From assembly GCF_004364315.1 (NCBI RefSeq), contig NZ_SOBR01000004.1, positions 1 through 64,000 of the forward strand: DNA of 64,000 bases, written 5' to 3'. Position numbers and translations under genes: made by a program. How positions within the stretch are numbered: position 1 is the stretch's first letter; each line of letters begins with the position of its first letter. Below are positions 20,669 through 57,900 of this stretch, in pieces. The stretch is from Chromohalobacter marismortui. GTDB lineage: Bacteria > Pseudomonadota > Gammaproteobacteria > Pseudomonadales > Halomonadaceae. A model generated the notes under the pieces. The model was not told where the DNA came from and searched no databases. It saw only the letters and a program-made list of their open reading frames with translations.

Positions 20669-20709
20669 TCATTCTTTCACGAGACAACCACACGCTGAAC
20701 AAGACCGGA

Positions 20710-41745: not shown

Positions 41746-41882
41746 GCCCTCACTGCAGTGACATGAACGCCCAAGCTGAATCGTGTCATGTCATGCCAAC
41801 ATCACGCGGCCTTGGGCAAGCAGGGCGTAACTGCGCTAACATCGGCGTTTCACTTCGAAGCGGGGCTCCCGAGCGTCTGTCC

Positions 41883-42974
41883 ATGTCCTATCGCATCGCC
41901 ATCAATGGTTACGGCCGTATCGGCCAATGTGTCCTGCGAGCCCTCATCGAACGCCATGCGACTGACCTGGTCGTGGTGGCCATCAACGAGCTTTCCGATC
42001 TCGATACCATCGCCTATCTGACACGCTACGACACTACCCATGGACGCTTTCCCGGCCAGGTGGAAACCCGCGACGGCGCACTGGTCATCGACGATCACGC
42101 CATCCGCGTGCTCTCCGAGCCCGACCCTGCAAAGCTGCCTTGGGCGGCACTTGGCATCGACCTGGTGCTCGAATGCTCGGGCAGCTTCAAGGACCGCGCC
42201 ACCGCCGAGCAACATATCGCCGCCGGCGCTCAGCGGCTGCTGTTCTCGCAGCCCGCCGAGGCCGATGTCGACGCCACCATCGTGCATGGCATCAACGACG
42301 CCGAGCTGCGTCCCGAGATGCGTATCGTCTCCGCCGCGTCCTGCACCACCAACTGCCTGGTACCACTGTTGACGGTGATCGACGAGGCGCTGGGGCTCGA
42401 GCATGGCGTGACCACGACCATTCATTCGGCGATGAACGACCAACCGGTGATCGATGCCTATCACAAGACCGACCTGCGCCTGACGCGCTCGGCCATGCAT
42501 TCGATCATTCCCGTGGATACCGGGTTGGCACGCGGCATCGAGCGCCTCATGCCATACCTGGCGGGGCGCTTCGAGTGCCTGCACGTGCGCGTGCCCACCA
42601 TCAACGTCTCGGCCATGGACATGGCGCTCTCGGTGCGCGAGGCCACCTCGGCCGAGCAGGTCAACGCGTTGTTGCAGGCCGCCAGTCACGAGCGTCTCCA
42701 CGGCTTGCTCGGCCATGCCCAGGAACCGGTGACGTCGGTCGACTTCAACCACGATCCGCGCTCGGGTATCGTGGACGCCACCCAGACCCGCGTGGCCGGC
42801 AGCCATCTGATCAAGATGCTGTGCTGGTTCGACAACGAGTGGGGCTTCGCCAATCGCATGCTCGATGTGGCGACGCACTGGCTGGCGCTTGCCGCCCAGC
42901 CCGCTCCCGCCACACCGACACGCGCCGCGCCCTCGACATCGCCGTTGTCGTCTGACATCCCTTCATCCAAGTGA
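41883..42974 (+). CDS. epd: Erythrose-4-phosphate/glyceraldehyde-3-phosphate dehydrogenase family, probably Epd
   Basis: Predicted 363-residue NAD-dependent dehydrogenase. The Rossmann start is [15 protein letters not shown] and the catalytic cysteine is Cys154 in SCTTN. Position immediately before pgk and class II fba copies the E. coli epd-pgk-fbaA order, favouring erythrose-4-phosphate dehydrogenase (pyridoxal phosphate synthesis) over glycolytic GAPDH. A Pro/Ala/Thr-rich tail of about 25 residues is unusual. The ribosome-binding site before 41883 is weak. A GAPDH role cannot be excluded from sequence alone. Confidence 0.87.
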
Positions 42975-45379: not shown

Positions 45380-46330
45380 TTACTGCTTGAGCACGAATGG
45401 AGCGGTGTACTGATCGACATTCTCCGGCGTGATGAGAATGCAGTCGAAGAGCTTCTTCTCGCCGTCGATGCCGGTCTCACCGGTACGGATGAATTTATCC
45501 GCCATACGAACCGCCATTTCAGAAAAAATCGCCACCGGCTGCAGGACCGTATAGGCCATTTCGCCTGCCTTGACTGCTTCCACTGCATCGGGCGAGCCAT
45601 CGAAGCCGCCGACCACGACCTCGTCTAGCTTGCCTGCCTGCTTGAGGGCGGCGATGGCGCCCAGCGCCATTTCATCGTTGCCGCTGATCACGCCATCGAT
45701 GTCAGGATGGGCCTGAAGCATGCTCTGCATCTTGTTATACCCTTGGGTACGGTCCCAATTGGCCACTTCAGAGGCCACTTTCTCAAGATTCGGGTACTGA
45801 CTCAGCACTGTCTCATAGCCATTGGAACGCGTCGCGGCATTGTTATCCGACGGCGCGCCCTTGAGTTCCACGTACTTGGCCGAATCTCCCACGGCCTGAA
45901 CCCACTGCTGAGCGCCCATTGCCGCCCCCTGGGCATTGTTGGAAACCAGTTGTGCCTTGGCCAGCCCCTTTTGGTTGATTTCCGCGTTGATGATGAACAC
46001 CGGAATGCCCGCCTCAACGGCCTTGCGTACTGCCCCGATGGAGCCGTCGGCATTGGCGGGATCAAGAATGATGGCCTCCGCCTGATTGGTGATCGCGGTG
46101 TCGACCTGATTGCTCTCGGTATTGGTATCGCCTTTATGCGAATTCACATTGGCTTCATAACCCAATTCTTCGGCTGTTTCTCGGGCGATCTTACCCTCGG
46201 TAAACCAGTAGGGATTCGAGGTGTCGTTGACGATGATCGAGATAAGCCCCTTGTCCTGCGCCAGGGCTCCTCCGGTGAACAATGCCGCGCTTACGGCGAG
46301 CATTGCTATCAGCAGGCGTTTTCCTTTCAT
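45380..46330 (-). CDS. RbsB-like sugar/polyol ABC substrate-binding protein
   Basis: Predicted 316-residue periplasmic binding protein of the Peripla_BP_4 (RbsB) family. A cleaved signal covers residues 1-24 (MKGKRLLIAMLAVSAALFTG, then ALA). ISIIVNDTSNPYW starts the first lobe and GFDGSPDAVEAVKAGEMAYTVLQ lies in the hinge and second lobe. I use the MKGKRLL start at 46330. The rest of the locus makes a tetritol the likely ligand, but ribose or a pentitol is possible. It is the last gene of the leftward operon. Confidence 0.9.
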   Translation of the reverse strand: MKGKRLLIAMLAVSAALFTGGALAQDKGLISIIVNDTSNPYWFTEGKIARETAEELGYEANVNSHKGDTNTESNQVDTAITNQAEAIILDPANADGSIGAVRKAVEAGIPVFIINAEINQKGLAKAQLVSNNAQGAAMGAQQWVQAVGDSAKYVELKGAPSDNNAATRSNGYETVLSQYPNLEKVASEVANWDRTQGYNKMQSMLQAHPDIDGVISGNDEMALGAIAALKQAGKLDEVVVGGFDGSPDAVEAVKAGEMAYTVLQPVAIFSEMAVRMADKFIRTGETGIDGEKKLFDCILITPENVDQYTAPFVLKQ

Positions 46331-46354
46331 GTACATAATGGACCACCTTTACTC

Positions 46355-47506
46355 TTATGATTGTGCACCGGCTTTACCGGTCGTGCTTCCCGTCGCCGTC
46401 GAGCGCTCGGTAGCGCCTTCCGGTTGCGGTGAAGTCGTCGTGCCATCGGAAGCAGGCTTGCTGGCCTTCCGACTGCTGTACTGAATACTGTTGAGCATCA
46501 CGGCCAGGATGATGACGGCACCGGTGAAGACCGTCTGCCAGTAGGCAGAGACGCCGATGATGACGAGACCATCCGATAAAAAACCGATCACGAAAGCCCC
46601 GAGCAGAGTGCCGCGCACGGACCCCCGTCCCCCGGCGAGCGCCGCGCCGCCTATGACCACACCGGCAATAGCGGTCAACTCATAGGTCGTACCGGCGGTG
46701 GGCCCGGCCGAGGTAAGCTGGGAGGACAACACCAGCCCGGCAATGGCGGCACAAATCCCGGACAGCACATAAACCGAGACCTTGACGCGATTGACCGGGA
46801 CCCCGGAGAGTTCCGCCGCTCGCGCATTACCACCCGTGGAGTAGACCCACCGCCCAAAGGGCGTACGCGAAAGCGCCAGCATGGCCATGATCGCGACGGC
46901 CACCATCACCAAGACACTGATCGGGATGCCCAATAACTCATTGAAGCCGAGCCAAGCAAACCCGGTATTGCCCAGGGCCTCGCTCCCTTCGAGGTTGTTG
47001 TAGGTCAGACCATCGGTCATCAACAACGCGACACCACGCGCCACATAAAGCATGCCCAGCGTCGCGACGAATGCCGGCACCTTGAAGTAGGCGACAAGGA
47101 CACCATTGATGGCACCCACGAATGCGCCCATGGCACAGGTCAGGATGACGACCACCCAAACCGGGGGATAAACGACGAAACCGAACATTTCCAAGGGAAC
47201 GCCCTGCATCAGAAAGCCCGCGAAGACGCCTGCCAATCCAAGCGTCGACCCCACGGAGAGATCGATACCGCCCGTCAGGATGACCAATAACATGCCCAGA
47301 GAGAGCAACCCGAAAATGGCAACGTGGGACGACATGGTCAGGAAATTGTCGACCGAGAAATAGACAGGAGAAAGAATTGAAAAAATGATGATGATCGCGA
47401 TCAAGGCGAAGAACGCACGCCCTTCCAGAAGCGCACGCTTTATATCGACACCGCCACCGAATAGTGTGCCGCGCTCATTGTCGTTATCTTGGCTGACATC
47501 AGACAT
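46355..47506 (-). CDS. RbsC-like ABC transporter permease
   Basis: Predicted 383-residue inner-membrane permease with about ten TM helices. GGIDLSVGSTLGLAG is the BPD_transp_2/RbsC signature, and IGGAALAGGRGSVRGTLLGA is the coupling-helix region. The C-terminus is Ser/Thr/Gly-rich. It sits between the ATPase and binding-protein genes. Confidence 0.92.
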   Translation of the reverse strand: MSDVSQDNDNERGTLFGGGVDIKRALLEGRAFFALIAIIIIFSILSPVYFSVDNFLTMSSHVAIFGLLSLGMLLVILTGGIDLSVGSTLGLAGVFAGFLMQGVPLEMFGFVVYPPVWVVVILTCAMGAFVGAINGVLVAYFKVPAFVATLGMLYVARGVALLMTDGLTYNNLEGSEALGNTGFAWLGFNELLGIPISVLVMVAVAIMAMLALSRTPFGRWVYSTGGNARAAELSGVPVNRVKVSVYVLSGICAAIAGLVLSSQLTSAGPTAGTTYELTAIAGVVIGGAALAGGRGSVRGTLLGAFVIGFLSDGLVIIGVSAYWQTVFTGAVIILAVMLNSIQYSSRKASKPASDGTTTSPQPEGATERSTATGSTTGKAGAQS

Positions 47507-47533
47507 TGTGATTATCTCCGCTTTATAAGTGGA

Positions 47534-49081
47534 TCAAGCGACCACGGCCTCGCCCGAGGCAGCCATAATCTCTTCTTTAGTGGCGTCGGCACCGAATTCT
47601 GCCGCCACCCGGCCACGACTCATGACCACGATACGGTGAGCAATACTCAGGCATTCGCCGACTTCCGAGGTCGAGAACACAACCGCCAGACCCTGTTGCG
47701 CCGCCCCCTCGCTAAGCAGCTTGAAAACTTCGGCCTTGGCGCCTATATCGATCCCTCGGCTGGGCTCGTCGAGCAGCACCACCCGGGGATGCGTCGCCAT
47801 CATCTTGCCGATCACGACTTTCTGCTGGTTGCCGCCGGATAACGACCCAATGGAGGCCGCCGCACCATCGGTCTTGATATGAACATTGCTGATCGACGCC
47901 TGCACCACCTGACGCTCACGTCCTCGCGAGGTCAGCAGCCCCTTGGTAAAGGCACCGATACTGGCAAGCGAGAGGTTTTCGCCCACCGACATCGTCTGCA
48001 CCAGACCATCGCGCTGACGATCTTCCGGCACCAGCACCAGGCCGTTCTCGATACGCTCGGCAATACTCAGCCGCGTGATATCCTCACCATGCAGCAGAAC
48101 CCGGCCCGCGCTGATCTCGCCACGCCCCGCCACGCTTTCGAGCAATTCGGTACGGCCTGCTCCCATCAACCCATAAATGCAGACGATCTCGCCAGCGCGC
48201 ACGCTCAACGACACGTCATCGACAACGGCTCGCCCAGGGACCGACGCATCCGGGACGGTGATGCCCTCTAGCGATAAGACAGCTTCTCCCATCGCATACC
48301 CATCCGGCGGAGAACCGAGATCGAAGTTGTCCCCCACCATATTGCGCACGATCCATTCCAGGTCGATGTCCTCGCGGCGGGCATAGGCCGTCATCGCCCC
48401 ATCGCGCAATACCACGGCATGATCGGTAACGGTCAGGGCTTCCTCGAGGTGGTGGGAGATATAAACGAGCGAGACGCCCCGGCTTTTCAGGTCACGGATC
48501 ACGCGAAACAGCACCTCGACTTCGGAGGCACTCAACGCCGAGGTCGGCTCATCCATGATCAGAATGCGCGAGTCCACGGAAAGCGCACGGGCGATTTCGA
48601 CGATCTGCTGCTGCCCAAGACGCAGATCTTCCACAGGCGTGAGTGGGTCGATGGGTTCATCCAGCTCTTCCATGAGCTGGCGCGTCTGACGCGCCTCCTC
48701 CGCGTAATCGACGCCGCCCTTGCCGACGATTTCACGGCCCATGAAAACGTTATCGCGCACGTTCAAATTGGGCGCGAGGCTGAGCTCCTGGTGAATGATC
48801 GATATCCCCTGGCGCTGTGCTTCCGTGGTCGACGAGAAGTGAACCGGTTCGCCCTCGAGAATGATGTCCCCCGAGGATGGTTGCATCACACCCGAGAGGA
48901 TCTTCATCAGCGTCGACTTCCCCGCACCATTCTCACCGAAAAGTGTCGTCACCTGTCCGTAATGAACATCGAAATTGACATTCTTCAAGGCATGAACGTT
49001 ACCGAAGGACTTGGCGATATTGTGCGCTGAAAGAATCACCCTTCCCAGCGCCGCGTCTTGGCTAACTGCCTGCTCGTTCAT
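47534..49081 (-). CDS. RbsA-like sugar ABC transporter ATPase
   Basis: Predicted 515-residue ATPase with two fused nucleotide-binding domains. The first has Walker A GENGAGKST, signature LRLGQQQ and Walker B ILIMDEP. The second has a degenerate Walker A (GLMGAGRTE), as in RbsA, an intact signature LSGGNQQK and VVLLDEPSRGID. It energises the adjacent RbsC-like permease. Confidence 0.93.
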   Translation of the reverse strand: MNEQAVSQDAALGRVILSAHNIAKSFGNVHALKNVNFDVHYGQVTTLFGENGAGKSTLMKILSGVMQPSSGDIILEGEPVHFSSTTEAQRQGISIIHQELSLAPNLNVRDNVFMGREIVGKGGVDYAEEARQTRQLMEELDEPIDPLTPVEDLRLGQQQIVEIARALSVDSRILIMDEPTSALSASEVEVLFRVIRDLKSRGVSLVYISHHLEEALTVTDHAVVLRDGAMTAYARREDIDLEWIVRNMVGDNFDLGSPPDGYAMGEAVLSLEGITVPDASVPGRAVVDDVSLSVRAGEIVCIYGLMGAGRTELLESVAGRGEISAGRVLLHGEDITRLSIAERIENGLVLVPEDRQRDGLVQTMSVGENLSLASIGAFTKGLLTSRGRERQVVQASISNVHIKTDGAAASIGSLSGGNQQKVVIGKMMATHPRVVLLDEPSRGIDIGAKAEVFKLLSEGAAQQGLAVVFSTSEVGECLSIAHRIVVMSRGRVAAEFGADATKEEIMAASGEAVVA

Positions 49082-49094
49082 CGCTCACCCCGGC

Positions 49095-49745
49095 TCATTT
49101 AACGTCAAACGCAACCGGCGTAATGAGCCAGTTAGCGGGATTGATCAACTGGAAAACGCCCTTCACCGTTACGGTCTTTCCTTTAAGACTCTGTGTATCG
49201 ATATCCGATAGAACCTGGGCTTTCATGGCATTGTTCAGAGCGGATCCCGCATTCTGGTATTCGATCTGATTCTTGAATTGACCGAACTCGATCTTCCCCG
49301 TGGCATCGCGTAATGCTGTGCCATAGATAGCAGGGCCCGTCTGAACACGAATCGTCACATCGTCCGGCACCTCATCGGATTTGATTTCATACGTGCCCGA
49401 CTCTCCCTTGCCGACGACTCCGGTAACGGTCACCGGAATAATGGAACCGATGCCCGATGGCACACCATATCGCTCAGCGGCAGCACTCTTGTCTTTCTCG
49501 ATGGCACTCGCCAACTTGCCGACACTGACGGCATTTTCCTCGACATAGCGACGAATCTCGGGAAACGTCTCCTCGGCGAATTGCGCCAGTTTCGAGGCTC
49601 CACTCTCCTCTTCCGCCTCGATCGGCACCACCGTGGTATCCCAGGCCATGACGGCAAGCAGGACGACCGCAACGCTGATCATCACCGCCCTGCCGCGTCT
49701 TTTTCGCCATTGTTTAGTGGGCATCACAGCCGTATGTGAAGTCAT
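49095..49745 (-). CDS. DUF2291 periplasmic or membrane-anchored protein
   Basis: Predicted 216-residue protein with one N-terminal TM anchor (residues about 20-37, MISVAVVLLAVMAWD) and an extracytoplasmic domain with the DUF2291 pattern (TVTGVVGKGESGTYEI, and NPANWLITPVAFDVK at the C-terminus). Such proteins occur beside RbsABC-like transporters for polyols, and a role in transport or binding is inferred. It lies between the dehydrogenase and ATPase genes. Confidence 0.8.
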   Translation of the reverse strand: MTSHTAVMPTKQWRKRRGRAVMISVAVVLLAVMAWDTTVVPIEAEEESGASKLAQFAEETFPEIRRYVEENAVSVGKLASAIEKDKSAAAERYGVPSGIGSIIPVTVTGVVGKGESGTYEIKSDEVPDDVTIRVQTGPAIYGTALRDATGKIEFGQFKNQIEYQNAGSALNNAMKAQVLSDIDTQSLKGKTVTVKGVFQLINPANWLITPVAFDVK

Positions 49746-49835
49746 GATAAAGCGCCCCCTGGCGTCGCTGATGAATAGTGTTCAAGTTCTGCGCCGGATC
49801 ACGGTCATGACCGTCACGCAGGACACGCGACATCA

Positions 49836-50936
49836 TCACGCACCGGGCATTAAAATGATCTTGAGTGCGCTGCTGTCGTGTTTCATCAGCTCGATGCCCT
49901 TGTGGAAATCCGCCAGCGGCAGCTTGTGGGTCACCACACCTTCGGTGGGAAAGTCACCGCTTTCGATGCCCTCGATGACATGCGGATAACAGTAAGGTCC
50001 CAGGTGCGAACCGAGCACATCCAGCTCCTTGCGGTCACTGATGATGCTCCAATCGACTGTCACTGGATCCTTGAACACACTGAACTCGACGAAGCGGCCC
50101 AGCTTGCGCAACATCGCCAGTCCCTGCTCCACGGACTTGGGCGCACCGGTCGCCTCGATGTAGATGTCACAGCCATAGCCGTCGGTCATGTCCTTGACGA
50201 TCTGGACAACGTCTTCCTCACTCGGATTGAGCACCATGTCGGCGCCGAACTTCTTGGCCAGCTCCAGGCGCTCGCCGTGCAGATCAAGCACCACCAGCTT
50301 GGCGGGGCCGGATTTCTTGGCGGGACCGATCATGCCTAGCCCCAACGTTCCTGCGCCGGAGAGCACCACGATATCTCCCAGTTGTATCTGCGCTCGCTCC
50401 ACTGCGTGCATCGAGCAGGAAAACGGCTCGGTGAGCACGATGTTTTCCACCGGCACATCGTCTGGCAGCTTGTGGTTGATAGCTTCCTTGGGAAACTTCA
50501 TGTACTCGGCCATGCCACCGTTGACGTTATTCTGGAAGCCATACACGTCGTGCTTCTCGCACATCCAGTACTGGCCACGATGACAGAAGCGGCAGTCCCA
50601 GCACGGCACGATCTGCTCGGAAATGACCCGATCACCGACCTCGAAACCTGTCGCGCCGGGGCCCATCTTGACGACATGCCCGATGAACTCGTGGCCCGGA
50701 ATCATTGGCGCTTTGATATAGGCAGGCTGATCTTCGTCGCCCCAGAAACTCGGTGCGCCTTCATACGCCTTGAGGTCACCGGCGCAGATACCACAGGCTT
50801 CGACCTTGACCAGAATTTCCTTCTCTCCGATCTCGGGGACCGCAACGGTTTCCAGACGATAATCTTCCGGTGCGTAGGCGACGATGGCACGCATCGTGTC
50901 GGGAATGTCGGAAGGCAGGGTGGATGCGTCGTTCAT
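49836..50936 (-). CDS. Zinc-dependent alcohol dehydrogenase, probable erythritol/L-threitol dehydrogenase
   Basis: Predicted 366-residue MDR-family dehydrogenase. Catalytic zinc ligands are Cys48 (in ACGICAGD) and the His/Glu of GHE. The structural zinc site is CWDCRFCHRGQYWMC, and GAGTLGLG is the Rossmann loop. Overall it looks like the family named erythritol/L-threitol dehydrogenase, oxidising a tetritol to erythrulose. I chose the ATG at 50936 because a GGAGGT site lies just before it and inside the first codons of the ATG at 50948. It is the first gene of the leftward ABC operon. Confidence 0.78.
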   Translation of the reverse strand: MNDASTLPSDIPDTMRAIVAYAPEDYRLETVAVPEIGEKEILVKVEACGICAGDLKAYEGAPSFWGDEDQPAYIKAPMIPGHEFIGHVVKMGPGATGFEVGDRVISEQIVPCWDCRFCHRGQYWMCEKHDVYGFQNNVNGGMAEYMKFPKEAINHKLPDDVPVENIVLTEPFSCSMHAVERAQIQLGDIVVLSGAGTLGLGMIGPAKKSGPAKLVVLDLHGERLELAKKFGADMVLNPSEEDVVQIVKDMTDGYGCDIYIEATGAPKSVEQGLAMLRKLGRFVEFSVFKDPVTVDWSIISDRKELDVLGSHLGPYCYPHVIEGIESGDFPTEGVVTHKLPLADFHKGIELMKHDSSALKIILMPGA

Positions 50937-50966
50937 GATGACCTCCATTGAGCTGGCGCTTATTTA

Positions 50967-50993
50967 TCATTTGATCTCTTGTTGCTCAAATGA
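50967..50993. promoter_or_regulatory. TCATTTGA/TCAAATGA palindrome upstream of adh
   Basis: TCATTTGA and TCAAATGA are 8-bp perfect arms with an 11-bp spacer, about 30 bp upstream of the dehydrogenase start. Each arm resembles the TTCATATGAA core at 51180. A SorC-family operator is the most natural reading. Confidence 0.55.
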
Positions 50994-51154
50994 ATTAACG
51001 CTTTTCAGTATAGCCAGGTCAATGCAGTCGGCGACTTTTTCGTCTTATACTTTAGGATTGCTATTTAAATTATTGAAAATAAAGAACTTTTAAGAAAGCC
51101 TGCGGCGAGGACTGCAAGCTGCACATAAGAAAGGCAAGGGGAAATCACGAACCC

Positions 51155-51196
51155 TATCCGTTCACATGTATTTATTGCTGTTCATATGAACGGATA
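51155..51196. promoter_or_regulatory. Nested inverted repeats, candidate SorC regulator operator
   Basis: TATCCGTTCA (51155-51164) pairs with TGAACGGATA (51187-51196) as 10-bp perfect arms. Nested at 51180-51191 is GTTCATATGAAC, a 12-bp perfect palindrome. The site is between the regulator stop and the dehydrogenase start, so it could regulate the ABC operon at a distance or end the regulator transcript. Confidence 0.55.
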
Positions 51197-51222
51197 TTCA
51201 CGAGGCTTGTCGGTATCTTGCT

Positions 51223-52203
51223 TCAACTCGCCGTCGAGGTCGTCGCCTCATCCAGACGCAGAATGGTATGGGCGTTGGTCACACTGGTGGCCAGGGTGTC
51301 GATGACGCCTGTACGTAGCGCCCCCAGGATCCCCGCCGCCTTGGTATTCTCGCTGGCAATGGCCACGACATCGGGAATCCGCGCCAGGTCGGTGATGGTC
51401 AAGCCAATGACACGTCCCTGCATGGGCGTTTCCGAGGGACGGCCATGCATGTCGATGAAATCATATCCCATCATGTCGCCCACGGTTCCCGAGAGCCGCG
51501 CCTCGGCGATCTCCTGAGGCGTGAACCAGCCCATGCGCACCATGTTGCTGTCCTCGCTGAGATCACCGACGCCGATCATGGCGATGTCCGCGCGCCGCGC
51601 CCGGTCCAATGTCTGGCGTACGGTGGGGTTTTCATACATCGAGTCGCGCAGCGCCGGATTCTGCACCAGCGCTGGCGCATACAGCGTCTCGCTATCGCCG
51701 CCATACTTCATCGCCAGGCGGCGACAGATATGGTCGGGATTCATGTACTCACCGGCGCGCAATGAGCCGCCAATGGCACACACGAACGAGCATTTACGCG
51801 CGCCGTGCTCGAAGACATTATCGGCCACCGCCCCCACGTTACGCCCCATTCCCACCGCCACGATCGAACCATCGTGCAACTCGCGCGACAAATGATCGGC
51901 CACCAGGCTGGCCACACCGGACCGCTGAACGTCAGGGTCGGCGTGATCGAGCGCAATCAGAGCACGCTTGATACCGAAGCGGCGTATCAACGCCTGCTCA
52001 AGCTCGGCACTCACCGCGGGATGCTGGCGCACCCGTACATCGACGATGCCCTCGGCATGCGCGCGCTTCAGCAGTCGCCCCGCCTTGACCCGGGAAATCC
52101 CCAGCCGGTTGGCGATGGCCTCCTGGGTCTCCCCCTCGACGTAATACAAGGTGGCGATTTCCGTCATCAGCGCGACATCGGCGCGCTCCACACGTTCACT
52201 CAT
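51223..52203 (-). CDS. SorC-family (EryD-like) transcriptional regulator
   Basis: Predicted 326-residue regulator. Residues about 10-60 form the HTH (GETQEAIANRLGISRVKAGRLLKRA). Residues 70-325 form the sugar-phosphate-binding SorC domain, with IVAVGMGRNVGAV as its loop. Brucella EryD, the erythritol repressor, belongs to this family. It lies between rpiB and the ABC operon on the same strand. Its effector would be a phosphorylated tetrulose or similar. Confidence 0.88.
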   Translation of the reverse strand: MSERVERADVALMTEIATLYYVEGETQEAIANRLGISRVKAGRLLKRAHAEGIVDVRVRQHPAVSAELEQALIRRFGIKRALIALDHADPDVQRSGVASLVADHLSRELHDGSIVAVGMGRNVGAVADNVFEHGARKCSFVCAIGGSLRAGEYMNPDHICRRLAMKYGGDSETLYAPALVQNPALRDSMYENPTVRQTLDRARRADIAMIGVGDLSEDSNMVRMGWFTPQEIAEARLSGTVGDMMGYDFIDMHGRPSETPMQGRVIGLTITDLARIPDVVAIASENTKAAGILGALRTGVIDTLATSVTNAHTILRLDEATTSTAS

Positions 52204-52274
52204 GGCACTGCCTCATACGGTCCGCTCGAACGATGCGCACAAGATACCACAGCGAACAAGCGCACTCTCATCGA

Positions 52275-52775
52275 TCAGACGCTCGAGGAGTCGCGAAAAG
52301 CCTCTCTTTCATACTCCAGGATGCGCTCGACTTTGGCACGCGAACCGCCACCGCCGAACTCGGTGTCCAGGAAGGTCGTCACCACGGCCTTGGCCAACTC
52401 CGGACCAACCACGCGGGCGCCTAGCGTCACGATCTGGGCATCGTTGCTGGAGCGTGCCTTGGCGGCTGAATAGGTGTCATGCGCCTGCGCGGCGCGAATA
52501 CCGCGTACCTTGTTGGCTGAAATCGCCACCCCGATGCCCGTCCCGCAAACCAGCACGCCACGCTCGGCGTCCCCAGCGTCAATGGCGCGCGCCACCTTGA
52601 CCGCCACGTCGGGATACAGCACCGGCTCGGCGTTATAGGTACCGTAATCGATAGGCTCATACCCCAGAGCGCGAATGTGCTCGATCAGCAAGGTCTTGAG
52701 CTCGAACGCGGCCTCGTCGCCGCCCAGTGCAATACGCATTGTCGGCACGCGGCCTGCCATGCTTGAGTCTGACAT
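52275..52775 (-). CDS. rpiB: RpiB-family sugar-phosphate isomerase
   Basis: Predicted 166-residue aldose-ketose isomerase of the RpiB/LacAB family, a little longer than the usual 149. Key parts are ALGGDEAAFELK near the N-terminus, the catalytic Cys in CGTGIGVAISANKVRGIRAA, and NDAQIVTLGARVVG. Family members named EryI/DerI/LerI interconvert erythrulose and erythrose phosphates, which fits this locus. A ribose-5-phosphate role is the alternative. I chose the ATG at 52775 for its GGGAGA site; the ATG at 52739 has none. Confidence 0.88.
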   Translation of the reverse strand: MSDSSMAGRVPTMRIALGGDEAAFELKTLLIEHIRALGYEPIDYGTYNAEPVLYPDVAVKVARAIDAGDAERGVLVCGTGIGVAISANKVRGIRAAQAHDTYSAAKARSSNDAQIVTLGARVVGPELAKAVVTTFLDTEFGGGGSRAKVERILEYEREAFRDSSSV

Positions 52776-53151
52776 GTGTCGTCTCCCGTGATGAGTCCTC
52801 CCGCTTGCGATCGGCATGCAGTGATCGCTCGCGATAATGTTCAAAATATCACTAACCGAACATTTGTAAAATTCTCGATCACGAAAAGTCATATCAATCC
52901 CCGAGCCACTCTCTTGTCCAGCTTCCAGGAAAAGAAATAAAAAATCTTTTATTTCAAACTTCTACCTTAAAGAAGCGCTTTCAAGCCTGTTATTCACGAC
53001 CAAAGTCTCAGATATCGATACCGGCCATGCCTTGACAGCTCTGGGGCCCAAGCCTAAACATCTGTTCAGTGAAAGATCATTATATACTGCCCATCGAGGT
53101 GGCGGGCCGCCACGCCCCACCGTCGGCAACAACGAACAAGAGGAATACGCC
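52776..53151. promoter_or_regulatory. rpiB-dhaK divergent regulatory region
   Basis: This 376-bp AT-rich gap has no gene. It holds AATGTTC/GAACATT (52836-52842 and 52858-52864), 7-bp perfect arms. It also holds an AT-only-loop repeat GAAATAAAA/TTTTATTTC (52934-52955), the palindrome AAGCGCTT (52973-52980) and TGTTCAGTGAA near 53063. Several share the GTTCA half-site with the sites at 50967 and 51155. It must carry both promoters. Confidence 0.55.
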
Positions 53152-54144
53152 ATGCAACGCATCATCAATGACCCCGACAACGTCGTGGACGATGCCATCA
53201 AAGGTTACTTGCGCGCCTCGCCGAGCTTGTTTGCCGCCACCGACCATCCGCGTGTTCTCAAGTACCCGGGCAGCCCAAGCGACAAGGTCGGCATCGTCAC
53301 TGGCGGCGGCTCGGGGCACGAGCCGGCGTTCCTGGGGTATATCGGTGACGGACTGTGTGATGCGGTGGCCATCGGTGAGATCTTCTCGTCGCCCACCGCC
53401 GATGCCTTCCTCGAAGCCTTTCGTTGCGCACCCCATGGCCAGGGCGTCGCCTGCCTGTACGGCAATTACGCAGGCGATAACATGAACGTGAAGATGGCCA
53501 GGCAGATGGCCGAGATGGAAGACATCGAGGTCAAGACCGTGATCGCACGCGACGACGTGGCCTCGGCGCCGGCATCGGAGCGCGATAAGCGGCGCGGCGT
53601 CGCCGGCGAGGTGATGATGTGGAAAATCGGCGGCGCGGCGGCGGCCCGCGGCGATAGCCTCGACGAGGTCATCCGACTGGCACAGAAAGCCGTCGATGCC
53701 TGCTCGAGCATCGGTGTCGGGCTGAGTAGCTGCACCATCCCCGCAAACGGTAAACCCAATTTTTCGATCGAACCCGGCCACATGGAACTCGGCATCGGCC
53801 ACCACGGCGAACCAGGCATCGAGGTCGCGCCGCTGACCAGTGCCGAGGCTATCGCCGCGGCCATGTGCGACCCTGTTCTCGCCGACCAGGACTTCGCCGG
53901 CAGTGAGGTGGCCGTATTGATCTCGGGGCTTGGCGCCACGCCGGTAATGGAGCTCAATATCCTCTATGCACACATCGCCGAACGGCTCGAAGCTGCTGAT
54001 ATTCGCGTGCATCGTACGGACATCGGCAATTACTTCACCTCGCTGGAGATGATGGGCGCCACGCTCACGCTGATGAAGCTCGACGACGAGCTCAAACCGC
54101 TGCTGGACGCCCCGGCACGCTCGCTGGCCATCACGCAGCGCTGA
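53152..54144 (+). CDS. dhaK: DhaK-family kinase, substrate-binding subunit
   Basis: Predicted 330-residue subunit of a dihydroxyacetone-type kinase. GGGSGHEPAFLGYIGDG near residue 50 is the DhaK loop. GHHGEPGIE contains the His that binds the substrate covalently as a hemiaminal in DhaK. The locus suggests erythrulose as the substrate rather than dihydroxyacetone. The ATG at 53152 has an AAGAGGAA site; the frame extends to 53032 without similarity. It is followed by dhaL after 27 bp; no dhaM is present. Confidence 0.9.
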   Translation: MQRIINDPDNVVDDAIKGYLRASPSLFAATDHPRVLKYPGSPSDKVGIVTGGGSGHEPAFLGYIGDGLCDAVAIGEIFSSPTADAFLEAFRCAPHGQGVACLYGNYAGDNMNVKMARQMAEMEDIEVKTVIARDDVASAPASERDKRRGVAGEVMMWKIGGAAAARGDSLDEVIRLAQKAVDACSSIGVGLSSCTIPANGKPNFSIEPGHMELGIGHHGEPGIEVAPLTSAEAIAAAMCDPVLADQDFAGSEVAVLISGLGATPVMELNILYAHIAERLEAADIRVHRTDIGNYFTSLEMMGATLTLMKLDDELKPLLDAPARSLAITQR

Positions 54145-54171
54145 TCGGAACCGCTACCACGGAGACTCATC

Positions 54172-54825
54172 ATGCACGTTCTGGACGCGACTCAAGGCAG
54201 AGAAATTCTCGAGGAACTGGTCGAGGTCATCGTCGACAACCGTCAATACCTGAGTGACGTCGACGGCGCGATCGGCGACGGCGATCACGGTATCAACATG
54301 GCCAAGGGCTTCCGGCTCTGCGGCGAATCGATCGCCGGTCAATCGTTGTCGCTTTCCAAGGCGCTGGGCACGCTCGCCACGACTCTGATGGGCTCGATCG
54401 GCGGTTCCATGGGCCCTCTGTACGGCAGCCTCTTCATGGGCATGGCCAAGTCGATCAAGGACAAGGACAGCCTCGATGCCAAGGATTTCGGCGACATGCT
54501 GGCCGATGGGCGCGAAGCGCTCGAGCAGATCAGCGATGCCAAGGTCGGCGACAAATGCCTGCTCGATACCCTGGTGCCCGCCATCGACGGCTACCGTCAT
54601 GCTCTGGACGCCGGGGAGGATTTCCCCCAGGCACTGCAGGCATTGCGCAACGGCGCCCAGCAGGGACGCGATTCGACGCTCGACCTGGAAGCCAAGATCG
54701 GACGTGCGGCACGCCTCGGCGAACGCTCGTGCGGCCACCTGGATGCCGGCGCGGTGTCGTGCTGCCTGCTGCTGACCCGCTTGGCCGACAGCACCGAACG
54801 CCGCCTGGAAAAAGCCGCCGCTTGA
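54172..54825 (+). CDS. dhaL: DhaL-family kinase, nucleotide-binding subunit
   Basis: Predicted 217-residue all-helical subunit that holds the nucleotide and Mg2+ through the Asp triad in AIGDGDHGINM near residue 30. With DhaK it forms the complete kinase. No PTS component DhaM is encoded in the window, so ATP is the probable phosphoryl donor. Threitol and erythrulose kinases known elsewhere are often DhaK-DhaL fusions; here the parts are split. Confidence 0.9.
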   Translation: MHVLDATQGREILEELVEVIVDNRQYLSDVDGAIGDGDHGINMAKGFRLCGESIAGQSLSLSKALGTLATTLMGSIGGSMGPLYGSLFMGMAKSIKDKDSLDAKDFGDMLADGREALEQISDAKVGDKCLLDTLVPAIDGYRHALDAGEDFPQALQALRNGAQQGRDSTLDLEAKIGRAARLGERSCGHLDAGAVSCCLLLTRLADSTERRLEKAAA

Positions 54826-54926
54826 GCACGGGCGGCTGCTTGCTCGGCTCCCCTCCATTTCTTAGCCCCCGACGCCATCTGGCATGTCGAGGGCCTTCAC
54901 GCCCGCATATCGCGGCGGAGCACACC

Positions 54927-55883
54927 ATGGTTTCACAGCTCGACTCACTCAAGGCACTGTCGCACGTGGTCGCCGACACCGGGGACCCGGCTGCCATCGA
55001 ACGCTATCGCCCCGTCGATGCCACCACCAACCCTTCCTTGATCCTCAAGGCATTCGAGTTGCCCGGCTATCAGCCACTGATCGAGCGAATTCTGAGCGAG
55101 GAGCGCACCGAGACGCCGCATGACGCCCACCATTTGGAGCGCATCGTCGACCGGCTCTCGGTAGGCATCGGCAGCGAAGTTGCCCAACTCATTCCGGGGC
55201 GTGTCTCCACCGAGGTCGCCGCCAAGCTTTCGTTCGATACCCAGGCCAGTATCCGCAAGGCCCATGAGTTGGTGGCGCGTTACGAGGCACTGGGTATCGG
55301 CCGCGAGCGTATCTTGATCAAGCTCGCCTCGACCTGGGAGGGCATCCGCGCCGCCGAGGTGCTCGAGCGCGAGGGCATCCAGTGCAATCTCACGCTCCTG
55401 TTCAGCGACGCTCAGGCGCAGGCCTGCTTCGATGCCGGCGTGTTCCTGATGTCACCCTTCGTGGGGCGTGTCACCGACTGGTATCAGAAAGAAACCGGTC
55501 AAACGTTCTCCCCGGAGGACGATCCCGGCGTACGGTTCGTGCGCCAGGTCTGCGAGCGCGCCGATCGGGGTGGCTACGACACCATCGTCATGGGCGCCAG
55601 CTTCCGTACACCGGAGCAAGTCCTCGCCCTCGCCGGCTGTCATCGACTGACGATCTCCCCTGCCTTGCTGGAAACGCTCGAGGCGCGCGAGGGTGACATC
55701 GATGCCCAGGTCCGCTTTACGCACCCCGCAGCACAACCCGCCAGGCCCCTCGGAGAAAGCGCCTTCCGCTGGCAACATAATCAAGATCCCATGGCCATCG
55801 ACAAGCTGGCCGAAGGCATTCGGCGCTTCGCCGACGATCAGGCCTGCCTCGAGGACTTGATCGCCGACCGGCTCGCTAACTGA
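54927..55883 (+). CDS. tal: Transaldolase (TalA/TalB type)
   Basis: Predicted 318-residue Schiff-base enzyme (E. coli TalB is 317). Diagnostic stretches are [14 protein letters not shown] near residue 30, the catalytic Lys in [17 protein letters not shown] near residue 130, and [22 protein letters not shown] at the C-terminus. It would combine erythrose 4-phosphate with fructose 6-phosphate in the reverse direction. The ATG at 54927 has a GCGGAG site. It lies between dhaL and tkt2 in the same operon. Confidence 0.95.
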
Positions 55884-55908
55884 TTCACCGCTCCTGGAGG
55901 AGATACCG

Positions 55909-57900
55909 ATGCCCTCTCGCTTCACGCTGGCCAATGCCATTCGCGCTCTTTCGATGGATGCCGTGCAGGCCGCCAATTCCGGCCACCCCGGCGCGCCGAT
56001 GGGTATGGCCGATATTGCCGAAGTGCTGTGGAACGACCATCTCAAGCACAACCCCGACAACCCGACCTGGCCCGACCGAGACCGTTTCGTGCTCTCCAAT
56101 GGGCATGGTTCGATGCTGTTGTATTCGCTTTTACACCTCAGCGGCTACGACCTGGCCATCGATGACATCAAGCAGTTTCGCCAGCTCCATTCGCGCACGC
56201 CGGGTCATCCCGAGCTCGGCTACACGCCTGGGGTCGAGACCACCACCGGCCCGCTGGGTCAGGGGCTGGCCAACGCCGTGGGCTTGGCGCTGGCCGAACG
56301 CACCCTGGCCGCGCAATACAATCGCTACGGGCATGACATCGTCGATCACCGCACCTGGTGCTTCGTCGGCGATGGCTGCCTGATGGAAGGCATCAGCCAC
56401 GAGGCCTGCTCGCTGGCAGGAACGCAGGGGCTCGGCAAGCTGACCGTCATCTACGACGACAACGGCATCTCCATCGACGGCGAGGTCGCGGGCTGGTTCA
56501 CCGATGACACTGCCAAGCGCTTCGAGGCCTACAACTGGCAGGTCATCGCCGACGTTGACGGGCATGACCCCGCCGCCATCGAAGACGCCATCAACGCCGC
56601 CACGCAAGACGACCAGCACCCGACCTTGATCATCTGCAAGACGGTCATCGGCTTCGGCGCGCCCAACAAACAGGGCACCGGCGCCTGTCATGGTGCCGCT
56701 CTGGGCGAGGATGAAGTCGCCGCCGCGCGCCAGCGTCTCGAGTGGTCACACCCGCCGTTCCACGTCCCCGACGAGGTTTACGCGGGCTGGAACGCCGACG
56801 CGGCCGGCCAGCAAGCCGAGGCCGCGTGGCACCAACGCTTCGCGCGCTACGCCGAGGCGTATCCCGAGCTTGCCGCAGAGCTCGAGCGCCGCTGGCGTGG
56901 CGAGCTGCCGGGCGACCTGGGCGGCAGCGCCCTGATCGAAGACGCCCAGCACGCCTGCGATACGCTGGCCTCGCGCAAGGCCTCGCTCGGCGTGCTCAAC
57001 CACCTGGGACCACGCCTGCCGGAACTGCTGGGCGGCAGCGCCGACCTCGCGCCATCGAATCTGACGATCTGGGAGGGCGCACGCGCCATCTCGGCCCAGG
57101 CGCCCGACGGCAACTACCTGCATTACGGGGTCCGCGAGTTCGCCATGGGCGCCATCATGAACGGCATCAGCATGCACGGCGGCTTCATACCCTACGGGGC
57201 CACCTTCCTGACGTTCATGGAATACATGCACAACGCCGTGCGCATGGCCGCCATTGCGCGGCGCCAAGTGATCTTCGTCTATACCCATGACTCGATCGGT
57301 CTGGGCGAAGACGGCCCCACGCATCAACCCATCGAGCAACTCAACGCCTTGCGCATCACGCCGAACCTGGCGACCTGGCGGCCCTGCGACGCCACCGAAA
57401 CCAGCGTGGCCTGGCTGGCGGCGCTCAAGCGTCAGGACGGCCCCACGGCTTTGGTGTTCTCTCGCCAGGGGCTTCCCGGGCAAGCACGCGATGTCGCCCA
57501 GCTCGCCGCTATCGAACGTGGTGGCTACGTGCTCAACGATTGCGAGGGCACGCCCGAGTTGATCCTCATCGCCACCGGCTCGGAAGTCGGTCTGGCCATG
57601 GAAGCGGCTGCCCGGCTCAACGACCAGGGACGGCAGGTCCGCGTCGTCTCGATGCCCTGCGCCAGCGCATTCGATGCCCAAGACGCCGATTACCAGGAGG
57701 CGGTGCTGCCACCCACGGTGACACGCCGGCTCGCCATCGAAGCTTCGCATCCCGACTATTGGCGCAAGTACGTCGGCCCTCGCGGCAGCGTGATCGGCAT
57801 GACCGGCTATGGCGAATCGGGCAAGGCCGAGGACCTGTTCCGCCACTTCGGCTTCACCGTCGAGAACGTGCTCGACCAGGCGCGCACCTTGCTCGACTGA
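55909..57900 (+). CDS. tkt: Transketolase (second copy, in the polyol locus)
   Basis: Predicted 663-residue transketolase, equal in length to the copy at 23723-25714 and closely similar from end to end, for example [26 protein letters not shown] and [15 protein letters not shown] strong GGAGGAG site lies before the ATG. Position after dhaKL-tal suggests a dedicated enzyme consuming erythrose 4-phosphate with xylulose 5-phosphate. The two copies are direct repeats about 32.2 kb apart. Confidence 0.96.

Follow-up and report, generated by a model that had tools for sequence, protein, structure and literature searches.

Which compound enters the cell through the eleven-gene island at positions 45380-57900 of a stretch of Chromohalobacter marismortui DNA, and by which route is it degraded? 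The stretch, here called the window, comprises the first 64,000 nucleotides of contig NZ_SOBR01000004.1 (assembly GCF_004364315.1; genome size 3.55 Mb on 23 contigs), and profile searches of its open reading frames (ORFs) place the eleven genes in two divergent arms. An earlier interpretation made from the letters alone (the sequence-only reading) had listed an importer with DUF2291, a zinc dehydrogenase, a SorC regulator, RpiB, split DhaK/DhaL, Tal and Tkt and had proposed a tetritol catabolic locus; the whole gene set is found at the expected place. We consider it very probable that the island serves to import and catabolise erythritol. Of the new observations, the one of greatest use is a His-to-Ser exchange in the RpiB-fold isomerase, a one-residue marker that separates tetrose-phosphate from ribose-phosphate isomerases among proteins named 'RpiB'.

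The importer gives the first indication of the substrate. On the minus strand, the importer genes start with a predicted periplasmic lipoprotein of the DUF2291 family (49095..49745; PF10054, E 3e-41), followed by a double ATP-binding cassette (ABC) ATPase (47534..49081; two stretches of PF00005), a permease (46355..47506; BPD_transp_2, PF02653) and a periplasmic solute-binding protein (SBP; 45380..46336; Peripla_BP_4, PF13407, E 1.7e-56). The importers of Rhizobium bangladeshense and Paracoccus seriniphilus are 74-76% (SBP), 73-77% (ATPase) and 69% (permease) identical to it, and in their loci the genes for an FGGY-type kinase, a relative of glycerol-3-phosphate dehydrogenase, a TIM-barrel protein and a regulator of the SorC type follow one another in eryABCD order; ery gene names in these and in the plasmid loci are our own assignments from annotation and order. 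Six annotated plasmid loci with an SBP of at least 73% identity were inspected, and all six lie opposite eryA/B/C-type genes; L281 has, where eryC would be expected, a gene annotated as an aminotransferase. Plasmid-borne SBP matches fall into two bands, at least 68% and at most 53% identical, among 40 records spread over a total of 261. Where annotated (L034, L280-L283), the DUF2291 gene directly precedes the ATPase gene and, by our identification, fits the 'hypothetical gene' that starts the eryEFG transcript of Rhizobium leguminosarum, a bacterium that requires eryEFG for growth on erythritol (PMC3599248).

The letters of the binding pocket point in the same direction. At 15 ribose-pocket columns, which follow RbsB positions, the window SBP is identical to four of five EryG-type proteins and agrees with the fifth in 14. 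The window and EryG-type proteins differ from RbsB and 5ibq at Ser9, Phe15, Phe16, Asp89, Arg90 and Ile132; at the RbsB columns D89-R90, Asn-Ala is present in the window protein and in all five EryG-type proteins, and Asp-Arg in RbsB, in 5ibq and in a second Shinella SBP. Judged by subunit relationship, genome context and pocket letters the importer is of the EryEFG type, and it would take up erythritol.

The isomerase is the second piece of evidence. The RpiB-fold protein (52275..52775, minus strand; LacAB_rpiB, PF02502) carries Ser in the alignment column (EcHis99) in which solved RpiB proteins have the ring-opening His. This Ser is found in 108 of 108 rows (92 of them different) made up of the window and of loci retrieved by dehydrogenase, binding-protein or DhaK similarity, and the catalytic Cys is kept in every one of them. 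His-99 and His-102 are named as ring-opening residues (PMC3755991); a H99N exchange lowered kcat of EcRpiB 26-fold and LdRpiB H102N was inactive (PMC4783025). On chemical grounds, loss of this residue fits the proposed substrate, because a 4-phosphorylated tetrose has no free hydroxyl group with which to close a furanose ring. Rhizobial EryI (L033) also carries Ser and reaches 257.8 bits, above the cutoff of the D-erythrulose-4-phosphate isomerase model NF051858 (240). The window protein stays below the equivalog cutoffs for ribose-5-phosphate isomerases (136.4 versus 138.65 bits for TIGR01120 and 150.8 versus 168.2 for TIGR02133); the genome has no second match to the RpiB family, and RpiA is present. 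We speak of a proposed D-erythrulose-4-phosphate isomerase.

Does the Ser go together with tetritol genes in general? A class-level sample of RpiB proteins was too small for a marker test (a match in 3 of 114 genomes, our own included), so that a phylum sample was used, in which 103 of 299 genomes had a match. The test set consisted of the window and 93 further rows, namely 30 ready loci, 60 fetched stretches of the phylum sample, two class-level loci and E. coli rpiB; outside it were left 16 short matches (E 3e-19 to 4e-8), G476, G632 and the already known G010 and G000, both with Ser. Apart from the window there were 11 rows with Ser, 81 with His and one with Trp (L179, counted as neither). 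Tetritol-type neighbours were present in 11/11 Ser rows and in 0/81 His rows (Fisher p 2e-14, a value that ignores shared descent), flanks being as short as 1.5 kb in 31 of the His rows and about 1 to 2 kb in E. coli, so that far neighbours could escape. The sole tetritol-type neighbour in three of the Ser rows (L268-L270) is a TpiB/EryH-like gene, accompanied by an SBP in two of them. In a quickly built tree of 62 picked rows, from which the trait column had been removed, a single branch with a support of 82 (SH-aLRT, an approximate likelihood-ratio value) sets all 39 Ser rows, rhizobial EryI among them, on the same side.

The dehydrogenase and the kinase complete the conversion to a tetrose phosphate. 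The zinc polyol dehydrogenase (49836..50936, minus strand; PF08240/PF00107), proposed to oxidise erythritol to D-erythrulose, shares 53% identity with a protein of Providencia that bears the annotation erythritol/L-threitol dehydrogenase, and 72-75% with relatives on enteric plasmids. Its start was reset from translations and upstream sequence, as were those of RpiB (52775), DhaK (53152) and Tal (54927); the ATG at 50936 is preceded by GGAGG. The plus-strand arm begins with the substrate subunit DhaK of a split kinase (53152..54144; Dak1, PF02733, E 1.1e-110) and the nucleotide subunit DhaL (54172..54825; Dak2, PF02734; TIGR02365 with 168.4 bits versus a cutoff of 138.3). The His of the E. coli HGEPG motif, presumably the substrate His, is conserved in the alignment of DhaK. 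The genome contains no match to the DhaM model TIGR02364, which detects 3 of 14 controls (E. coli, Lactococcus, Haloferax), and the split kinase is for this reason probably ATP-dependent. Formation of D-erythrulose 4-phosphate from erythritol by the mycobacterial enzymes EltD and LerK is described in PMC10733421. Other genera of the family have a fused kinase in their island (ORFs of 581-607 codons in five loci checked, about 36-38% identical to DhaK), which indicates that the kinase was exchanged while importer, dehydrogenase and isomerase stayed. Such a fused DhaK-DhaL replaces the split kinase in L057, L061, L067, L070, L221, L231 and L252, and the last five of these loci also have a TpiB-like gene.

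Transaldolase (Tal; 54927..55883, plus strand; TIGR00874 with 401.5 bits versus a cutoff of 396.2) and transketolase (Tkt; 55909..57900, plus strand; TIGR00232, 964.8 versus 682.25) follow in the same arm. The sequence-only reading had spoken of a second Tkt, and the genome does hold two strong transketolase matches (C4:23738 and C4:55924) besides two weak ones, as well as two transaldolases; the copies of the locus are 67% (Tal) and 73% (Tkt) identical to their counterparts. Three molecules of erythrose 4-phosphate yield one fructose 6-phosphate and two molecules of glyceraldehyde 3-phosphate by the action of Tal and Tkt, aided by Rpi and Rpe. Tal and Tkt are both required if erythrose 4-phosphate is the entry point of all carbon. 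E. coli equipped with an ery cluster up-regulated tal and tkt, and their over-expression raised growth up to threefold (PMC10190533). In a Tkt tree the copy of an E. coli plasmid locus falls beside E. coli TktA and that of Erwinia beside TktB; halomonad locus copies join the core Tkt of halomonads, and in the Tal tree halomonad and enteric locus copies likewise fall apart. Both trees are quick builds from picked rows with SH-aLRT support only, some long branches and an E. coli TktA row that lacks its first part; they suggest that Tal and Tkt appear to have been recruited separately in several lineages and do not fix the exact number of events. A single travelling mobile module of Tal and Tkt was considered and rejected, the copies grouping with those of the host lineage.

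From these parts we infer the following reactions, substrates and regulation. Erythritol would be taken up by the EryEFG-type ABC importer and oxidised to D-erythrulose by the zinc dehydrogenase, and the ATP-dependent split DhaK/DhaL kinase would phosphorylate the latter to D-erythrulose 4-phosphate. The RpiB-fold enzyme, for which ring opening would no longer be necessary, presumably isomerises this compound to D-erythrose 4-phosphate. Its drainage would fall to the island's own Tal and Tkt, which with the help of RpiA and Rpe of the cell would turn three molecules of erythrose 4-phosphate into one fructose 6-phosphate and two glyceraldehyde 3-phosphate. As long as neither erythritol nor an intermediate is present, both arms are probably kept repressed by the SorC regulator. 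A tetritol route via erythrulose, erythrulose 4-phosphate and erythrose 4-phosphate with a built-in exit had already been put forward by the sequence-only reading; importer type, isomerase grouping and growth of relatives support it, and they support narrowing the tetritol to erythritol.

As to growth, EC 2.7.1.27 in what follows denotes erythritol kinase. Chromohalobacter salexigens DSM 3043 grows in vivo on erythritol and on ribose and does not grow on adonitol, and the metabolic model of this strain needed 13 additions, EC 2.7.1.27 among them, to reproduce missing substrates (PMC3034673). Growth on erythritol is a documented trait of Chromohalobacter that the model displayed only after reactions had been added (PMC3034673), and the island offers candidates for the genes behind it. 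Halomonas HL-93 also grows on erythritol, and the same study predicted new ABC systems, one of them for erythritol (PMC5507952).

Several observations weigh against this assignment. The window RpiB reaches 156.7 bits and stays below the NF051858 cutoff of 240, so that we claim no strict equivalog and only that it works like such an enzyme; it passes the broader subfamily model PRK05571 (ribose-5-phosphate isomerase B) with 178.8 bits versus 135. The association of Ser with tetritol-type neighbours does not amount to 11 independent events, since the Ser rows can be one clade. Neither the dehydrogenase nor the kinase is identified as acting on tetritols by any of the listed NCBIfam models. The nearest solved SBPs by sequence, 5ibq and 4ry0 (274 bits), are named ribose SBPs (the ligand being ribose in 4ry0 and apiose in 5ibq), and 4rs3 and 4rsm, presumably mycobacterial polyol/threitol binders, score far lower (about 120 and 117 bits). 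Many plasmid records label EryG-type proteins as D-ribose SBPs. Finally, the phenotypes are those of other strains, C. salexigens DSM 3043 and Halomonas HL-93, in which carriage of the island is presumed.

Among the alternatives, the one that survives best assumes D- or L-threitol as the primary substrate and erythritol as a side substrate; we regard it as unlikely. A short-chain dehydrogenase/reductase (SDR) accompanies the same kind of kinase and isomerase in related loci of Pseudomonas, Serratia and Vibrio and on a Salmonella plasmid, and EltD of Mycolicibacterium smegmatis also takes L-threitol (PMC10733421). The island, however, has no SDR, and the 21 matches that the genome has to the SDR from the Salmonella plasmid reach at most 39% identity. 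L-Threitol would moreover yield L-erythrulose 1-phosphate and require EryH/LerI, a gene absent from the island; the sole genome match to rhizobial TpiB is 40% identical and probably represents the housekeeping triosephosphate isomerase. In addition, this kind of importer occurs in loci with erythritol genes only, according to PMC3599248. Starting from erythritol a single isomerase suffices, which fits an island without EryH/LerI, and we therefore predict that erythritol, but neither D- nor L-threitol, serves as a substrate.

Less probable still is a system for glycerol or dihydroxyacetone with Tal and Tkt as accessories. It would agree with the family membership of DhaK/DhaL and with the gol operon of Listeria (Monniot 2012), which is said to combine a dehydrogenase, DhaKL, RpiB, Tal and Tkt, to be linked to the phosphotransferase system and to be related to glycerol; the name 'gol operon' does not occur in the papers listed by one literature search. 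RpiB, Tal and Tkt would, however, be superfluous for dihydroxyacetone phosphate, the Ser-type RpiB accompanies tetritol-type genes, and a separate, fused Dak protein is encoded elsewhere in the genome. A pentose or apiose system, suggested by the ribose-type SBP annotation, by the solved structures closest to the SBP and by growth of C. salexigens on ribose (PMC3034673), was set aside as highly improbable on pocket comparison and genome contexts, given that the pentose-pocket Asp-Arg is replaced by Asn-Ala, that profile searches of the island genes revealed no ribokinase and that the isomerase lacks the ring-opening His.

The island is conserved well beyond the window. From 250 family genomes searched, 65 had a relative of the dehydrogenase at E<=1e-90, and 52 regions were taken from 50 of these, a biased sample with several regions cut by contig ends. 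The island occurs in the same order and beside gap-pgk-fba in 9/9 congeners with a dehydrogenase match, and no congener is among the non-matching family genomes listed, a further 165 lying outside that list. All eleven genes are present at no less than 50% identity in 15 of the 52 regions; a dehydrogenase of at least 70% together with an EryG-type binding protein of at least 65% is found in 43, and the remaining nine mostly have a second type of dehydrogenase, about 50% identical, with a different importer. Carriers include Modicisalibacter, Halomonas elongata (where the contig stops before tkt), H. eurihalina, H. faecis, Aidingimonas and Marinobacter mangrovi. The absence of Brucella-type EryA, EryB and EryC, noted earlier for the locus, extends to the fetched family regions, to which the search was restricted: none at 50% identity or more in 52 of 52. 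Starting from DhaK, whose closest relatives among the matches listed are Chromohalobacter proteins (91-98% identical), an RpiB relative lies nearby in 68 of the best 80 relatives selected by DhaK similarity among these matches; 53 of the 80 combine RpiB with a dehydrogenase of at least 60% identity, and in 17 of the 53 Tal is present as well.

How new is this arrangement? For Mycolicibacterium smegmatis, an erythritol/threitol pathway with EltD, DerK/LerK and DerI was reportedly established by Huang et al. in 2015. DerK and LerK are DhaK-type enzymes and DerI is an RpiB-type enzyme. Compared by description, the island resembles this pathway in its three steps (dehydrogenase, kinase, isomerase) to erythrose 4-phosphate, but differs from it by a two-chain kinase, an importer of the rhizobial EryEFG kind, a SorC regulator and its own Tal and Tkt; the mycobacterial pathway is described in PMC12780249 and PMC10733421. 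With the eryABCD-eryEFG system of Rhizobium leguminosarum and Brucella (PMC3599248; relatives L033 and L034) it shares the importer with leading DUF2291 and the last isomerase, EryI, of RpiB fold, but it lacks EryA, EryB and EryC, and oxidation precedes phosphorylation.

Similar loci also exist in enteric bacteria and on plasmids (E. coli pEM20-18-50_2, L036; Salmonella p28NP1, L035; Serratia, L110-L112 and L118), in which the dehydrogenase is 72-75% and DhaK 66-72% identical. They share DhaL, SorC, a Ser-type RpiB and Tal with the island, and Tkt as well in L036, L112 and L118, but have a transporter of the major facilitator superfamily (MFS) in place of the ABC importer, and some add an SDR; where annotated, their genes bear generic names. 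The opinion of the sequence-only reading that a split kinase with a tal-tkt pair is unusual does not hold, as dehydrogenase-DhaKL-RpiB-Tal loci exist on an E. coli plasmid, in Serratia and in Erwinia, several of them with Tkt. The individual parts are known, and the combination of a rhizobial importer, a route of mycobacterial type, a split kinase and dedicated Tal and Tkt is new; a literature search with most subscription journals outside its reach recognised no paper describing this gene set, and a Halomonas version may already have been predicted in PMC5507952. For some enteric bacteria, a candidate route for erythritol is suggested. Erythritol is commonly used as a sweetener, and its catabolism is said to be beyond the abilities of gut microbes (PMC10190533).

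Whether the exchange of His for Ser marks an old and widespread RpiB-fold clade specific for 4-phospho-tetroses, which would tag generically named tetritol loci in Pseudomonadota, Bacillota, Chloroflexota and Spirochaetota including those on enteric plasmids, and whether Tal and Tkt were drawn in separately in several lineages because drainage of erythrose 4-phosphate limits growth, is in our judgement an evenly balanced question. Dehydrogenase relatives of 72-75% identity are encoded on plasmids of Salmonella, E. coli, Raoultella and Klebsiella (L035, L036, H43, H46-H49). The two such loci that were read (L035, L036) are arranged as dehydrogenase-MFS-DhaKL-SorC and RpiB-Tal(-Tkt), with generic names. 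A Pseudalkalibacillus plasmid (L037:10001-15719) carries consecutive genes for a dehydrogenase (73%), an MFS transporter, RpiB, DhaKL and GlpX. In this Bacillota version a fructose bisphosphatase is included, and the stretch read contains neither Tal nor Tkt.

The regulator (51223..52203, minus strand; Sugar-bind, PF04198, E 1.8e-71) belongs to the SorC family, and its closest solved relative by sequence is 3kv1. The designation as EryD-like stands for the family and not beyond it, since identity to the ery-locus regulators of Rhizobium and Paracoccus amounts to no more than 29-31%. An alignment of 12 picked regions (window and 11 relatives) shows three conserved intergenic islands between drifting flanks, with hexamers of promoter type and inverted repeats in them. 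The first, promoter/operator-like and belonging to the dehydrogenase-importer arm (50962..51055, minus strand), contains the inverted repeat TCATTTGA-N11-TCAAATGA; upstream of it lies a palindrome GTTCATATGAAC (51180..51191, minus strand), similar to TGATCATATGTTCA in L051-L053. The second is located upstream of rpiB (52836..52873, minus strand; AATGTTC-N15-GAACATT), and the third, again promoter/operator-like, in the dhaK arm (53032..53084, plus strand) with TTGACA-N17-TAAACA followed by TGTTCAGTGAAAGATCA. An operator consensus TGANCA-N6-GAWCA, derived from the conserved islands, was tried and rejected: it has two matches in the window (0.27 expected; two of 100 shuffles reach two), of which that at 20696 is off the island. 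The consensus matches the genome 12 times, compared with two matches for the reversed pattern, and the dhaK-arm site does not fit it. A longer pattern (up to three mismatches) was also discarded: both of its matches fall in its own sources, the islands at rpiB and dhaK, and 16 of 100 shuffles reach two. A promoter scan of the region was at chance level (five found, mean 4.2). The conserved islands may hold a candidate operator, for which none of the patterns tried was specific.

Some further features deserve mention. In four Halomonas/Aidingimonas loci (L053, L054, L072, L073) a tkt copy stands on either side of the island, both in the same orientation, at a distance of about 12.7-13.5 kb and with 99.2-99.95% identity at the DNA level; in L052 the identity is 88%. 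These pairs point to gene conversion or recent duplication and possibly offer a route for excision or amplification. Near an ery-type locus of Roseibium (L280:17922-18930), a fusion of a sugar-binding regulator with DhaK is annotated. A gap-type gene at 41880-42974 adjoins the island and so sits beside genes that would produce erythrose 4-phosphate; its best model is erythrose-4-phosphate dehydrogenase, with a score below the cutoff (476.8 of 530.55).

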